Assembly (NCBI RefSeq): GCF_003429665.1
Contig: NZ_QUWK01000003.1
Coordinates: 186,001-250,000, forward strand
DNA from: Sphaerochaeta halotolerans
GTDB lineage: Bacteria; Spirochaetota; Spirochaetia; Sphaerochaetales; Sphaerochaetaceae
Length of the DNA stretch: 64,000 nt
Reading direction: 5' to 3'
The notes beneath the pieces were generated by a model. It saw nothing but the letters and a program-made list of their open reading frames with translations. It was not told where the DNA came from and did not search any database. Position numbers and translations under genes: made by a program. This document shows positions 55,450-61,933 of the stretch, piece by piece (the first letter of the stretch is position 1; every line of letters starts with the position of its first letter).

Positions 55450-56100
55450 CTACCGCTCTTTCCGATCCTTGAAATCCTTCTTGATTCGCTTGTTCCAATC
55501 ATCTGGAATGGAAGAAGCGGAGCGGTAGTAGGAAACTGCCTCACTCATCACTTCGAAGTTTAATTGGATGCCTTCTTTATCGGCATGAAAATCCTGTGCG
55601 CGCTCTCTTGGGATCCCAACTGCCTCTGCTGCTACCTCTGCATCGATGTTTGCACCAAGGTAGATAAACTCCCATCCATAGTTCTCCCGCTCTCTCTTGA
55701 TCATCTCTCGAACCATCTGAGCAGAGTACTCCCTGCTTGCGTTCTCCATCCCATCGGTAATAATCAGGAAGATTACATGCCCAGCTTGGTATTCTGGTGC
55801 TGTGGTCCTCTGAACCTGCACAATCTTGGAAATAGTCCGCCCAATTGCATCGTACAGTGCAGTAGAGCCTCCCACAACATACTCTTTCTCGGTCATTGGA
55901 CTCACTGCCTCGATGGCAATACGGTCATGGAGCAACGCATAGTCGTTGTCAAACAACACGGTCGTGATAGTGCACGGAGTATCCAACGCCTGCTGCCCAG
56001 CAAGCATTGCATTGAATCCTCCAATGGTGTCGCTCTCCAATCCATGCATCGAACCACTGCGGTCAAGAATACATACCAATTCAGTCACACTTTTTTCCAT
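55450..56100 (-). CDS. von Willebrand factor A domain protein
   Basis: A 216-residue cytoplasmic VWA protein with an intact metal-ion-dependent adhesion site: CILDRSGSMHG at residues about 10-20, VGGSTALYDAIG near 80 and the aspartate in LIITDGMENASRE. It resembles TerY-like VWA proteins. GGAGG lies five bases before the ATG used; 22 codons upstream of it are open but belong to the gap. It follows the macro-domain gene by 74 bp on the same strand, so the two may form an operon. Confidence 0.82.
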   Translation of the reverse strand: MEKSVTELVCILDRSGSMHGLESDTIGGFNAMLAGQQALDTPCTITTVLFDNDYALLHDRIAIEAVSPMTEKEYVVGGSTALYDAIGRTISKIVQVQRTTAPEYQAGHVIFLIITDGMENASREYSAQMVREMIKRERENYGWEFIYLGANIDAEVAAEAVGIPRERAQDFHADKEGIQLNFEVMSEAVSYYRSASSIPDDWNKRIKKDFKDRKER

Positions 56101-56174
56101 TGTGTCCTCCAATACTGATGTATATGTATTGGTACCCTGAAAGAGGACTGGGATGGTCGCCTCCAAGGCGACAA

Positions 56175-57161
56175 TTAACAGCTTCCAAGTAGTGGTTGGT
56201 CGTATGAGAAAAGTACTTCGTTTACCTCAAGGACCTTGTAGTGCTTATGCACAATGCAATACTCGATGATGATATCGAAGATGTTGTTGTGAGAGAGTGC
56301 ATAGCCGGCTTTTCTCAAGAGCTTTTCAGTCTCTTCAAGACTAAGTTCCAGCGCGATTGCCAAAGCAAGGACCGTGCGCTTGCTGGGAGTGTACCCGTTT
56401 CCACTCCGGATCTTTGAGAATAATTTTCGGTCGATGTTTGCCTTTTTGTAGACATCAACTTCTGTTTTGCCTTTTGCCTGTATTAGGGCTCTTAGAGAGT
56501 CTGAGAACGGCTCATCAAGATTGGAGAGAGCTTCAGCAAGATTAGGTTCATAGAAGGGGGACCGGATTTCTTCCACTGATTCCAATTCCATCGCTTCAAT
56601 CTCGAGCATGTCCCGCTTCAGGGCGTGTTTCTGAACATACTGTTCCTCAATATACTGTTCAATTGAGGTATGAAGCTTTGTTCCTGCAAGGAAAGACTCC
56701 TTGTTGAACAGTACCAGGTAGACGGTAAGCTCATGCTTTGCTAGAAATTGTTCAATGGTAGTCCTGGCGACTTCCAAAGCTTCTTGTTTCGGGTAACCGA
56801 AGATACCACTGCTGATCAAAGGAAATGATAGAGAGGAGATCTTGTGCTGCACTGCGAGCTGGAGACTGTTACTGTAGCACTGCTGAAGTAGCTCCCGCTC
56901 TCCGCTTTTCCCATCATGATAAACAGGACCTGCTGTGTGAATGACATAACGAGCAGGAAGCGAAAACCCTGGGGTGATGACAGCCTCCCCGGTCTTGATC
57001 GGGGAGAGGGGAGCACAGGCCTTCGTCATCTCTTGTATTCCGGCTGCTCGAAAGATTGCACCACACACTCCTCCGCCCATCAGCAAGGCAGTATTGGCTG
57101 CGTTGACGATAGCCTCACTCTGCATCTTCGTAATATCATTTTGCACCAAGAAGAAAGGCAT
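56175..57161 (-). CDS. Macro domain fused to a helix-turn-helix domain
   Basis: A 328-residue protein. Residues 1 to about 165 are a macro domain that binds ADP-ribose: NDITKMQSEAIVNAANTALL, GGGVCGAIFRAAG, YVIHTAGPVYHDG and FPLISSGIFGYPKQEAL. After a charged linker, residues about 225-300 carry a helical, Xre-like region (GKTEVDVYKKANIDRKLFSK, IRSGNGYTPSKRTVLALAIA, LSLEETEKLLRKAGYALS). GAGGAGG precedes the ATG. Fusion to DNA- or partner-binding helices suggests regulation by ADP-ribose or its derivatives. Confidence 0.85.
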   Translation of the reverse strand: MPFFLVQNDITKMQSEAIVNAANTALLMGGGVCGAIFRAAGIQEMTKACAPLSPIKTGEAVITPGFSLPARYVIHTAGPVYHDGKSGERELLQQCYSNSLQLAVQHKISSLSFPLISSGIFGYPKQEALEVARTTIEQFLAKHELTVYLVLFNKESFLAGTKLHTSIEQYIEEQYVQKHALKRDMLEIEAMELESVEEIRSPFYEPNLAEALSNLDEPFSDSLRALIQAKGKTEVDVYKKANIDRKLFSKIRSGNGYTPSKRTVLALAIALELSLEETEKLLRKAGYALSHNNIFDIIIEYCIVHKHYKVLEVNEVLFSYDQPLLGSC

Positions 57162-57188: not shown

Positions 57189-58214
57189 TCATAACAAATA
57201 CAGCTCGTGTTCTATGAACACATGCACCAAATCAGCATCGAACTGGGTTCCTGCATTGAGTTTGATCTCTTCCACTGCAAGTTCGGTGGGAAGTGCAGAG
57301 CGATACGCACGACTGCTGGTCATGGCATCAAAGGCATCAGCAAGGCTTACAATCTTGACATCCAGAGGAATATCCTCTCCCTTCATATTGTCAGGATATC
57401 CCCGTCCATCGATTCTCTCATGATGGGAGCGTATGATTGGAATGTACTGCTTGAATGAAGGTATATGGGTAATAATACGCACCCCGGCTTCGGGGTGCGT
57501 CTTTATCAGGGAATACTCTTCTCCTGTAAGTGATCCATTTTTGTTCAAGATTTCCTCAGGGATGCTGATCTTCCCGATGTCATGCAACAAAGCGCCCCCT
57601 TCAATGATCTGGAGCGTCTTTTCATCTAGGTTCAGCGTCTTCGCCAAGGCAACAGCAAGCGTTCTGACCCTGTTGCAATGTCCTTTTGTGTAGGGATCCT
57701 TCTGTTCAATAGTTTCGCTGAAGGCTTCTAGCGTAGAAATGGTTGAACGCTGCAAGGTGCTTTTTGTTTTTCTTAGCTCTGCCTCAAGTTTCTTTCTGAT
57801 GGCAAGGTGCTCTTCATCAATTTCCTTTTTTCTCTGCTCTTCACTTGCTTTTTCCAGTGCTCGGTGTATACAGGAGTAGAGTTCTTCCTGGCGAATTGGT
57901 TTTGTGAGGTAGTCGAAAGCACCCAACCTAATGGCTTTCATGCCTGTATCGAGGTCATTGAATGCAGTGAGCATCACCACTGGGATAGATGGGTATTTCC
58001 TTGCAATTCTCTCAAGAATTTCGAACCCTGTGGGCCCAGGCATCTTGATGTCCAAGAGTATGAGGTCGATTGAGGTGGTAGTGTTTTCTAGCAAATGGAG
58101 TAATTCATTCCCGTTCTCACAGGGAGTTACTTCATACCCAGCCTTTTTTAGCATAATCCGTAGAATCTTTCGGATAGCAGGATCGTCATCAGTTGTTACA
58201 ATATGTCTAGTCAT
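57189..58214 (-). CDS. Response regulator with HD-GYP domain
   Basis: A 341-residue protein. Receiver domain with the acidic TDDDPAIRK start, phosphorylation aspartate in LILLDIKMPGP and K in FDYLTKPIR; a coiled-coil linker; then an HD-GYP domain (EGGALLHDIGKISIPEEIL, RSHHERIDGRGYPDN), a c-di-GMP phosphodiesterase type. The second ATG is used because the first abuts the GGAG site. The gene lies 24 bp downstream of the methyltransferase-like gene. The large histidine kinase encoded divergently nearby may be its partner. Confidence 0.9.
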   Translation of the reverse strand: MTRHIVTTDDDPAIRKILRIMLKKAGYEVTPCENGNELLHLLENTTTSIDLILLDIKMPGPTGFEILERIARKYPSIPVVMLTAFNDLDTGMKAIRLGAFDYLTKPIRQEELYSCIHRALEKASEEQRKKEIDEEHLAIRKKLEAELRKTKSTLQRSTISTLEAFSETIEQKDPYTKGHCNRVRTLAVALAKTLNLDEKTLQIIEGGALLHDIGKISIPEEILNKNGSLTGEEYSLIKTHPEAGVRIITHIPSFKQYIPIIRSHHERIDGRGYPDNMKGEDIPLDVKIVSLADAFDAMTSSRAYRSALPTELAVEEIKLNAGTQFDADLVHVFIEHELYLL

Positions 58215-58238
58215 CTCGAGCATCTCCGTGGTGTAGTG

Positions 58239-58751
58239 TTAGCAGGGATTCAAGAAAGGAGTGGTTTTCTTATATTCCCCATACTGGGGGAACATTTTAG
58301 GAAACAATACTCGATCCTCTAGCGTTACAAGCGCCAGATTGCAGAGCGTGTATCCCACAAGAATCAAGGTAATTGGAGTATACCAGAAGAAGAGAGATGC
58401 GGAAACATTGAAAAAGGAAAACCAGAGGAACCCTGGATGACGACAAATCTTATAGGTTCCACCAGTATAAAGGCTTCCATCTTTGCTGTTCTTCAAAGGG
58501 ATCTCCAACAAAACTGAATAGATGAGTAGGACAGCATTGGCTGCCATGAAAAGAATTAGGAGTAAACCAAAGGCAGGGTGGTGAGGACTTCCAAACCTTG
58601 AAAATAAAAAAAAGAAAGGCAGAGCTGTAACAAAAAATCCTAGGTATAATAGCTTGCTGATTCGGTAGTAGCCCTTCAACAATGCGATATCATACAAGGC
58701 TGCAAGCAAATATCCAGTGGCTCCTAGTAAAAATAGTTTGAAAAATTCCAT
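58239..58751 (-). CDS. Isoprenylcysteine carboxyl methyltransferase-like membrane protein
   Basis: A 170-residue protein with four or five membrane helices and the C-terminal signature YKICRHPGFLWFSFFN and EDRVLFPKMFPQYGEYKKTT, the SAM-binding part of the ICMT/PEMT superfamily (compare RHPxY and E...F...Y.EY). The bacterial substrate is unknown; lipid or small-molecule methylation is usual. Likely cotranscribed with the HD-GYP regulator downstream. Confidence 0.78.
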   Translation of the reverse strand: MEFFKLFLLGATGYLLAALYDIALLKGYYRISKLLYLGFFVTALPFFFLFSRFGSPHHPAFGLLLILFMAANAVLLIYSVLLEIPLKNSKDGSLYTGGTYKICRHPGFLWFSFFNVSASLFFWYTPITLILVGYTLCNLALVTLEDRVLFPKMFPQYGEYKKTTPFLNPC

Positions 58752-58810: not shown

Positions 58811-61800
58811 ATGATTATTGATGTTTCCACTATTATTCCCGCTGTGGCGTTTGTCCTTTACGTTTCCTTTGTCATCTTTGGATTTCTCCAGTATAAGAAA
58901 GATCGTTTCTATTGGTCATTCCAACTCTATATGATTTTCGTAGCCATATGGAGTTTTGGTTCCTTGATGATGCACCTCAATAGCCATATACTTACGCCGA
59001 TTTTCTGGAACCGTATCATGCTCATCGGCTTGTTGAGTGTTCCCTATGCGCTGTGCAACTTCATCGTGGATATTCTAGAAATCAGGAATAAGTCCATCAG
59101 GTTGTTCCTCAAGCTGAGTTACCTTCTCTTGATTCCCCTCATGTACCTTAATTTCACTGGAAACATTGTAAGTGCTGCTGGCTTCACGAGTGACAATATC
59201 TTTTATTATGAACTGGCAGGTGGATCATTAAGCGCCTATTCGCTGAGTTATGTATACCTCATTCTCACGCTGGTCATGCTCTTGGTTGCAAGTAAGAATC
59301 GGGGTCTCCATAATTTCCAGAAGAATCTCCTGCTTCCCTTGGTTGGTGTGGTGATCATGTTGGTAGGGATTTTCATAAACGTTTTCCCCGAGCTTGGCCG
59401 GTACCCGATCGATATTTTCGCTGCAACCATCAATGCAGTGCTTCTCTTCTACACCATTTACAAGTATAAGTTGATAAACTACTCTCGTCTTGGGCTATCC
59501 ATCATTTACTCAACCTTGCTCGCTTTTGCTGCTTCAGTCATCTATTACGCAATTATCAGCTTCATCAAACTGTTCAATAGTGACTTCGCCCCAGGGAATA
59601 TTTTCCAACTTTCATTCATCCTTGGTGTTGCCACTGTTCTTATTGTTCATCCGCTGAGAAATTTCATTGCCTATTGGGTGGACAATGTGCTTATCCCCAA
59701 ACGTCATCCCTATCAGACAACCATCAGAAATCTCAGTAAACGACTCACCACCATCGTTAATCTGCACCAGCTGGGTAATGAGGTGGTGGAAAATCTCCGC
59801 TCTGGGCTGAAGGCTGAATGGGTCATCTTCATCGCACGACGCCTTGATGATGAGAGCCGGTTCTTCCTCGTAGCAAACAACAACTGTCCCACCGAAAGGG
59901 CGGTGGGGCAGGATATCCTTTTCTCCTTTTCTGAAAATATTGAACAAAAACTTGATGTCTGCAGGCAGGAGAATTTATCTTCAGTCATCAGTGTAAGCCC
60001 TGATGAGGAACGCCTGTCAGTCAGTGAATTCTTGCCAGTCAGTGATGTCATGATTCCCTTGGTGTTCCGCCATCAAATAGCTGGCTATATCCTTATCGGG
60101 TATGGACAGTCCAATGTCCTGATAAGTGAGATCGAGCGTGAAGCCCTAGAGATTCTTGCTTCCCAGAGCAGTCTCTCATTGGAGAATGCGCTTTCCTTTG
60201 AAAAGCTCAGAATCCAGGGGGAAGAACTGACGATGAGCAAGAACAAGCTTGAAGCCATCTTCAATGGTATCGCCTCGCCTGTCTGCTTGATCGACATCGA
60301 CTACACCATTCAGGAAGTGAATACTGCTGCAGTAAGCTTTGTGGGGCAGAACCGGGAACGGCTCATTGGGAGCAAGTGTTATCGAGCTTTGTTTGGGAGA
60401 AGCCGTCCCTGCCCATTCTGTCAGGGACTCGAATGTTTGCACACCGGGGTGATGCATGAAACTGAGGCTGAGGAGAAGGAGCGAATTTTCTCCTTCCAGT
60501 TCCACTCCGTTCGCTCTGCAGATAAATCCAAGAGTGTATTCATAGAGATTCTCAACGACATAACTGAACAGAAACACATGCAGGAAGAGCTGGTTCGCAC
60601 AGAGAAGATGGCCGGTATCGGCACGTTGGCAACCGGTATCGCCCATGAGTTGAACAATCCTCTTGCGGGAATCGTAGGTACTGCAGAGATTATGTTGGAT
60701 GAACTGGAGGAGAGCAATCCACACTATGAGTATGTGAATGACATTCTCAGTTACTCCAAGACTGCAAGCGACGTAATCAAGGAGCTCTCGATCTATAGCA
60801 GAAGGGAGGAGGTGAAAGAAACCCAGGAAGTGGAACTGATCAGGGTCCTGGAATTCTCTCTCCGCCTAGCGCAGCGAGGTATCGACTCGCAAAATATTGA
60901 GATTAAACGCAACTACCACGCCCTTCCATTCATCCAGGCAAATGAAGGGGAGTTGCAACAGCTCTTCCTCAACCTTATAGTCAATGCCTTCCAGGCAATG
61001 GAGGGGAAAGGCACCTTGACACTCAGCTGTGTAGAACAGGATGATTTTGTGCAGATAAAGATTGTTGATACCGGTTGCGGTATCCCAGAGAAACATATGA
61101 GCCAGATTTTCACACCATTTTTTACGACAAAGGCTCCAGGAAAGGGCACAGGGCTTGGCCTGTCCAACTGTTACAGTATTGTGGACAAGATGCGTGGGCG
61201 TATCAGGGTCCGTAGTGAGGTAGGAAAGGGAACAGAGTTCACGACCATTTTTCCTCTTAATGAAGAGAGCAAGGAAATCATAAAATTTTCTTTGGTTGAG
61301 GACCACCATGGAATGAGTGATGTATTCTTTATTCAGCGAAAGGTGTTGGTAGGAGAAAAAGGATATATTGAGGAGTCAATTCATCGAAAAGTAGATGAAA
61401 AAGCAATGCATATTCTAGCGTTCAAGGGGTTGCAACCCGTTGGAACGGTTTCCTTGATGACCAGTGAACACTTCTGGCCACTGCCAATTTCCAAGTACTT
61501 TGAAATTGAACCGCTCCTGAAGACCAAGAAGTGTGCTGAGATTATTCGTCTTGCAGTACTCCCTGAGATGCGAAACACCTCTGCTTCCATTGGACTGATC
61601 ATCCTTGTCTTCCTGCTTGCACGAGCTGTCGGGGTGGAGGAGCTAATCATCGATGTGTTTGCCGATGACACCAAGACCAAGAAACTCTACAAGAAATTCG
61701 GTTTTGTGGAAGTTGGGTCATACAATTCCCCTTCCGAGGTGACAGTACTGGTTTTGCAGAGCAAGTCTACCTTGGAGAAGGACAAGTCCCAGCTCAGGCA

Positions 61801-61933
61801 CTTTGTCCGTCCACTGTTTGAGCGCTTGAGACCCATGTTCAATCTCGGCCCTTATACCCAGGCAGTGCATGAGGAGATGGATAGGATTCTCAGTGCCGAT
61901 GATGAAGAAGAATCTGAGGAACACATTGGCTGA
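58811..61933 (+). CDS. Membrane histidine kinase fused to a GNAT-like acetyltransferase domain
   Basis: A 1040-residue protein. Seven or eight membrane helices (residues 1 to about 245, 7TM sensor type), a GAF domain (about 300-460), a PAS domain with a cysteine cluster [14 protein letters not shown]-like segment (about 480-590), HisKA with [15 protein letters not shown] (phospho-histidine near 613) and HATPase ([27 protein letters not shown]). After the kinase, residues about 825-985 resemble an N-acyl/N-acetyltransferase fold: [56 protein letters not shown]. No receiver domain. Its TGA stop abuts the stop of the convergent LacI gene (TGATCA). Confidence 0.88.

Follow-up and report, generated by a model that had tools for sequence, protein, structure and literature searches.

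Histidine kinases normally act by phosphotransfer only. AtoS/NtrB-like PAS histidine kinases and HisKA_7TM kinases have a HisKA-HATPase_c core with a HELNNP box, a PAS domain and a 7TM sensor in common with the protein described here, but they stop at HATPase_c whereas this protein runs on into an acyltransferase-like domain. For acyltransferases of the kind that this domain resembles, a review places Glu94/Gln97 of FeeM and Glu101/Arg104 of LasI in the active site (PMC9654057), and Nas354 lost its phenotypes when the corresponding Glu was replaced (PMC4897644). Nas343 and Nas354 are a FeeM-type pair carrying a PilZ-like c-di-GMP-binding domain (PMC4897644).

Domain layout and predicted fold

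The window, that is, the whole stretch of 64,000 nucleotides of Sphaerochaeta halotolerans DNA that was analysed, contains an ORF of 1040 aa on the plus strand at 58811-61933, the limits that a preliminary description of this DNA had given it. The features of the ORF and of its two divergent neighbours are as follows.

57189..58223, minus strand: REC-HD-GYP response regulator of the c-di-GMP phosphodiesterase type, predicted partner of the kinase (Pfam, invariant residues, 26/26 loci)
58239..58751, minus strand: ICMT-like membrane protein, 170 aa (Pfam ICMT below cut-off, profile match to 4a2n, fold)
58811..61933, plus strand: sensor histidine kinase with a fused FeeM/LuxI-like acyltransferase domain (ORF, Pfam, orthologs)
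58853..59479, plus strand: HisKA_7TM, N-terminal 7TM sensor region, residues 15-223 (Pfam PF16927, 41.8 bits, cut-off 28.6)
59708..60205, plus strand: GAF-like segment, about residues 300-465 (position between 7TM and PAS only)
60245..60496, plus strand: PAS domain, residues 479-562 (Pfam)
60623..60811, plus strand: HisKA dimerisation/phosphoacceptor domain, residues 605-667 (Pfam, over cut-off)
60944..61261, plus strand: HATPase_c, residues 712-817, with DTGCGI and GTGLGL boxes intact (Pfam, over cut-off)
61280..61765, plus strand: predicted GNAT-fold acyltransferase-like domain, FeeM/LuxI side, residues 824-985 (Pfam, AlphaFold2 model, structure and profile matches)
61475..61537, plus strand: core of the beta3-beta4 insert, about residues 889-909 (constant 30-residue length, 20/20 members)
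61538..61549, plus strand: E910-I-I-R913, invariant ExxR with the candidate catalytic Glu (20/20 members)
61769..61921, plus strand: C-terminal helical tail, residues 987-1037 (helices in the AlphaFold2 model)

The fusion protein is a histidine kinase, with a HisKA domain that contains the phosphoacceptor His and a HATPase_c domain that contains the nucleotide-binding boxes. The phosphoacceptor is His612 (codon 60644-60646), the motif of which is present in all complete orthologs checked, and GIAHE[LI]NNPL, DTG.GI and GTGLGL are kept in all orthologs with complete sequence. The preliminary description had read this part as 7TM-GAF-PAS-HisKA-HATPase, and Pfam bears out the 7TM, PAS, HisKA and HATPase_c components. 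The GAF component was not confirmed, as no Pfam match to a GAF domain was obtained at E<=0.1 in the 1040-aa protein; the segment at about residues 300-465 is GAF-like by position.

About 7 residues separate the end of the Pfam HATPase_c match from the start of the GNAT fold. The AlphaFold2 model of residues 815-1040, generated with 16 homologs, has a mean pLDDT of 87.7 and a pTM of 0.84, and as modelled the C-terminal domain has GNAT fold topology: the order of its strands and helices is that of a GNAT fold, after which come helices at about 987-1037, a tail that is among the least conserved parts of the protein. A GNAT or AHL-synthase-like fold had been proposed for residues 825-985, and structure prediction upholds both the fold and the limits, giving a confident GNAT fold at about residues 824-985 and not the absence of one. 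Foldseek returned 591 PDB matches to the domain model at E<=0.001, the AHL synthase BjaI among them. With VIA-align, SACOL1063 scored Z 19.7 (140 residues, rmsd 1.8), YjcF Z 18.5 (137 residues, rmsd 1.8) and FeeM 2g0b Z 18.5 (166 residues, rmsd 2.5), the last being the longest alignment among the matches listed.

Family placement and candidate active site

The best Pfam match of the domain is to FeeM (PF21926, N-acyl amino acid synthase; residues 850-974, 37.9 bits against a cut-off of 27), with Acetyltransf_1 scoring below it (residues 860-965, 26.8 bits against a cut-off of 20.7). Both models were matched by 20/20 family members, PF21926 at E<=1e-3. The LuxI model Autoind_synth (PF00765) gave no match at E<=0.1 for the window protein and none at E<=1e-3 for the 20 members, and as such we do not call the domain an AHL synthase. 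When profiles were compared with HHalign, the family matched FeeM-like proteins from another phylum and from other spirochaetes at E 2.3e-17 over 146 columns, as against 6.8e-8 over 88 columns, with the insert mostly a gap, for the ordinary GNATs of its own genome.

All 20 members share a spacing of 30 residues from PVGT to ExxRLA, a stretch that in most of them contains P[IL]xxxF; FeeM-like proteins have a comparable beta3-beta4 insert, most of which is gapped in the ordinary GNAT profile. The acetyl-CoA pyrophosphate-binding P-loop Q/RxxGxG/A was found in 0/20 relatives and, searched as a simple pattern, in 10/15 other GNATs of the same genome. At its position the Sphaerochaeta relatives have RNTSAS and distant relatives RRGIIP or RGSIIP. 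Judged from sequence features, the beta3-beta4 insert and the invariant ExxR together place the domain on the FeeM/LuxI side of the superfamily, ExxR alone not being decisive because it also occurs in some ordinary GNATs. A standard ACETYLTRANSFERASE was considered as well and is disfavoured by the absent P-loop (0/20) and the better fit to FeeM.

The closest protein of the PDB by sequence is the CoA-binding GNAT SACOL1063 (5JPH; 5.5e-9), with a match that covers the N-terminal half. Despite their Z-scores of 19.7 and 18.5, however, SACOL1063 and YjcF (1Q2Y) align over 137-140 residues only, and SACOL1063 keeps the P-loop (RGQGMG) and has no 30-residue insert, whereas the fusion domain shows the opposite.

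Nine polar residues are invariant in 20/20 members: Q842, R843, K844, E849, Y852, R859, D862, E910 and R913. E910 and R913 are the probable equivalent of Glu94/Gln97 of FeeM and Glu101/Arg104 of LasI, as matched by sequence pattern rather than by superposed coordinates. Two Arg residues that are conserved in LuxI, one N-terminal and one after beta3, appear to be replaced by Q842 and S881, a correspondence that we assume here. Between close relatives the dN/dS of the domain is 0.009-0.018, among the lowest of all segments of the protein and a sign of strong purifying selection, and within the relatives of family f1 the identity to the window protein is 72-97% in the domain as against 51-96% in the GAF-like segment.

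Distribution and gene neighbourhood

Searching about 85,000 species genomes with the domain of the window protein retrieved 15 spirochaete loci at 73-97% identity, and all of those on long enough contigs carry the whole kinase. Run on 393 spirochaete genomes, a domain profile (A1) scored above 256 bits in 15, the next match being at 35 bits, and the profile of the N-terminal kinase module (A4), run on the same number of genomes of the phylum, scored above 828 bits in 15, the next being at 176. The same 15 genomes are on both lists, with module and tail in one ORF, and no ortholog of the kinase in them is without the C-terminal tail. Of the families that they represent, f1, f8, f12 and f56 lie within the class and f19 and f37 do not, and the orthologs retain the fusion down to about 38-41% identity in the domain. 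Since no genome sampled has the domain without the sensor or the reverse, the fusion either predates the split of the spirochaete classes or moved as a unit. A frameshift, an assembly join and a chance resemblance were rejected as explanations, given that the fusion recurs in one frame in orthologs of many assemblies. In genome G387 the ortholog (L129:4849-7998) is divided by one in-frame TAG into frames of 226 and 822 aa, which may reflect a pseudogene or a sequencing error.

Within the genome of the window nothing else comes near the domain in score (next E 7e-4), and the kinase module is not duplicated, its generic PAS/kinase part being all that finds matches. No viral relatives were found. 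That such fusions are unusual, as the preliminary description had remarked, agrees with a search of three other phyla (596 sampled genomes), of limited sensitivity and without a positive control, in which no match to the domain reached E<=1e-9. The survey across spirochaetes that the same description had called for is the one that gave 15/393 genomes. No kinase-GNAT or kinase-LuxI/FeeM fusion was found in the open-access papers searched. In this respect a classical two-component system has been extended by an enzymatic domain, on the input or the output side, and we found no precedent for it in the open-access papers searched.

The HD-GYP gene is divergent to the fusion in 26/26 distinct loci with a complete neighbourhood (not counting L091 and L133, duplicates of L007 and L014 respectively, or L010, which is truncated), so that the link to this regulator, already proposed from the window, is conserved throughout. 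Across 12 sequences its REC and HD-GYP residues D13, D58, T86, K108, H214, D215, H243, H267, H268, E269, G275, Y276 and P277 are invariant, and with a REC phospho-Asp pocket (Asp58 intact) and the HD and HHExxxGxGYP residues the neighbour is, by sequence, an HD-GYP phosphodiesterase regulator. The earlier suggestion that it lacks its own kinase does not hold: the fusion, with its intact HisKA-HATPase_c, is the obvious cognate kinase, and phosphotransfer is therefore the expected link between the two. On the simplest reading, given the gene pairing and the intact receiver Asp58, they would form a cognate kinase-regulator pair that lowers c-di-GMP. A promoter scan of the 59-bp divergent gap gave matches at chance level only. 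Behind the HD-GYP gene, VWA-like and macro-domain-like proteins are encoded in tandem (55450-57161, minus strand), and these are near the fusion in some relatives only.

Between the HD-GYP gene and the fusion lies the ICMT-like gene, 15 bp from the former and on its strand. Its product scores 20.0 bits with Pfam ICMT (PF04140), under the cut-off of 24, and 7/18 members match at E<=0.01. The family has the conserved motif GxYxxxRHP ... FPxxF, the product of this gene carries RHPGF ... EDxxxFPxxFxxYxxY, and the family profile matches the solved ICMT 4a2n at E 0.0037. The predicted structure (pLDDT 92.4) is near both ICMT (Z 9.3-9.5) and sterol reductase (Z 10.4), so that methyl transfer is plausible, not established. 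The gene is present in 23/26 neighbourhoods and missing only in L085-L087, which come from other classes; there the fusion adjoins conserved nitroreductase-like, CbiZ-like and aminotransferase-like genes. The fusion has neither an acyl carrier gene nor an export gene next to it.

FeeM-like proteins were also observed in other settings. Related ARRANGEMENTS were seen in L088 and L093, where HTH-REC, a FeeM-like enzyme with a PYEISRS motif, a histidine kinase and a REC-kinase hybrid are separate genes in same-strand runs (L088:1284-7302 and L093:2103-7000), resembling a split kinase and acyl-synthase circuit; in L088 a FeeM-like protein that matches V4R weakly comes after the run. In two spirochaetes (L060 and L064, longest minus-strand frames) a FeeM-like domain is followed by cyclic-nucleotide-binding and methyltransferase domains, as found by Pfam for L060 and judged alike by eye for L064, and a wider view of the former (L089) shows an adjoining adenylate-cyclase-like gene. 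In another phylum, L135, L137, L139, L141 and L143 encode fusions of about 540-566 aa with a class-V aminotransferase (Pfam on L135, the others judged alike by eye). Kinases were not among the partners of these other FeeM fusions, which were cNMP-binding, methyltransferase and class-V aminotransferase domains. Finally, in L094:1-5775 the gene for a 452-aa membrane protein, the FeeM-like match of which is weak, is flanked by ketosynthase-like and malonyl-transferase-like genes. Taken with the PilZ pair, the split runs and other fusions suggest that FeeM-class enzymes have been tied to signalling repeatedly, with c-di-GMP involved in at least one earlier case.

Possible functions and comparison with known systems

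We put first, at about even chances, the reading that the domain is an active N-acyltransferase within a c-di-GMP two-component circuit. What is observed is the fusion, its predicted fold, its family placement, its conserved residues and an HD-GYP gene that is always paired with it; we infer catalysis, donor, acceptor, phosphotransfer and direction of control. After autophosphorylation on His612, the membrane kinase would phosphorylate the REC-HD-GYP protein encoded divergently from it, and this protein would hydrolyse c-di-GMP. The C-terminal domain would acylate a small amine or amino acid with acyl-ACP or acyl-CoA as donor, Glu910 serving as general base; the N-acyl product, possibly modified further by the neighbouring ICMT-like membrane enzyme, may feed back on the 7TM sensor, or its synthesis may follow the state of the kinase. 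The preliminary description had left it between a partner protein and a small signal, and acylation of a small signal is the version that we favour.

This reading draws on the FeeM model as best Pfam match, the HHalign match to FeeM-like proteins, the fold match, the invariant ExxR, the constant insert, the P-loop count of 0/20, the low dN/dS, the shared 15/393 genomes, the HD-GYP gene at 26/26 loci with its invariant catalytic residues and the split runs of L088 and L093. Against it stand the best PDB sequence match, SACOL1063, with a Z slightly above that of FeeM, the lack of a match to Autoind_synth, the limited weight of ExxR alone, the lack of an adjoining acyl carrier or export gene and the loci without the ICMT-like gene, and a ligand-sensing domain without catalysis would also show conserved residues.

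It is possible, if somewhat unlikely, that the domain instead senses acyl supply: it would bind acyl-ACP or acyl-CoA with no or slow turnover and set kinase activity, so that c-di-GMP follows acyl status. Its position directly behind HATPase_c, its never being found apart from the kinase and a P-loop region that varies by lineage while acceptor-side residues are kept would all suit such a sensor, but the invariance of a Glu equivalent to the catalytic residue of FeeM goes beyond what a pure binding domain needs. We consider it unlikely, too, that the active acyltransferase serves as a one-protein communication device, with signal synthase and receptor, both product and sensing being putative, in one polypeptide, a reading that fits all the data. 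The acyltransferase domain would make an N-acyl amino acid or amine signal that the ICMT-like enzyme would then complete, a methyl ester being one conceivable end product. The 7TM part, on the polypeptide that also carries the synthase, would sense this signal and set c-di-GMP via the HD-GYP partner.

More improbable is that the domain uses acetyl-CoA to acetylate a protein, be it the kinase itself, the HD-GYP regulator or some other. The GNAT fold, the CoA-bound SACOL1063 as closest PDB sequence and an Acetyltransf_1 score over cut-off speak for it, but Q/RxxGxG/A is found in none of the 20 members, the FeeM model and profile fit better and the insert is common to the FeeM-like group; the earlier idea of an acetylated partner, with the HD-GYP regulator as target, is accordingly unlikely, the P-loop missing in 20/20 and the domain lying on the FeeM/LuxI side. 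A catalytically dead appendage kept for dimerisation or folding is very improbable, for although the catalytic roles of the conserved residues are predicted ones, few parts of the protein are as well conserved as the domain, which has nine invariant polar residues including E910 and R913.

In this fusion a domain of the class to which the makers of fatty-acyl amino acids and AHL signals belong has become a permanent part of a kinase, in several families and more than one spirochaete class, always beside a c-di-GMP phosphodiesterase regulator. Acyl metabolism, possible small-molecule signalling and c-di-GMP are thereby linked in a way that can be tested, in a phylum about whose cell-to-cell signalling little is known, and the single residues H612, E910 and R913 separate the hypotheses.

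Among known systems, LuxI-type synthases (BjaI 5W8A, LasI) have the ExxR motif in common with the fusion domain, and BjaI is a Foldseek match over 225 columns; they differ in that their Pfam model, Autoind_synth, does not match it. FeeM/Nas enzymes (PF21926, PDB 2G0B) share the GNAT fold, the best Pfam model, the alignment at Z 18.5 over 166 residues and the conserved Glu, and their FeeM-like relatives have a beta3-beta4 insert as in the fusion domain; the known forms are stand-alone or joined to a PilZ-like domain (PMC4897644), and a fusion to a histidine kinase was not found in the papers searched. In the NAS-PilZ pair Nas343/Nas354 (PMC4897644), a FeeM-type enzyme is tied to c-di-GMP signalling, and likewise in the fusion. 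The tie in that pair, however, is a c-di-GMP-binding-like domain on the enzyme, whereas here the putative enzyme is carried on a kinase, the predicted partner of which degrades c-di-GMP.
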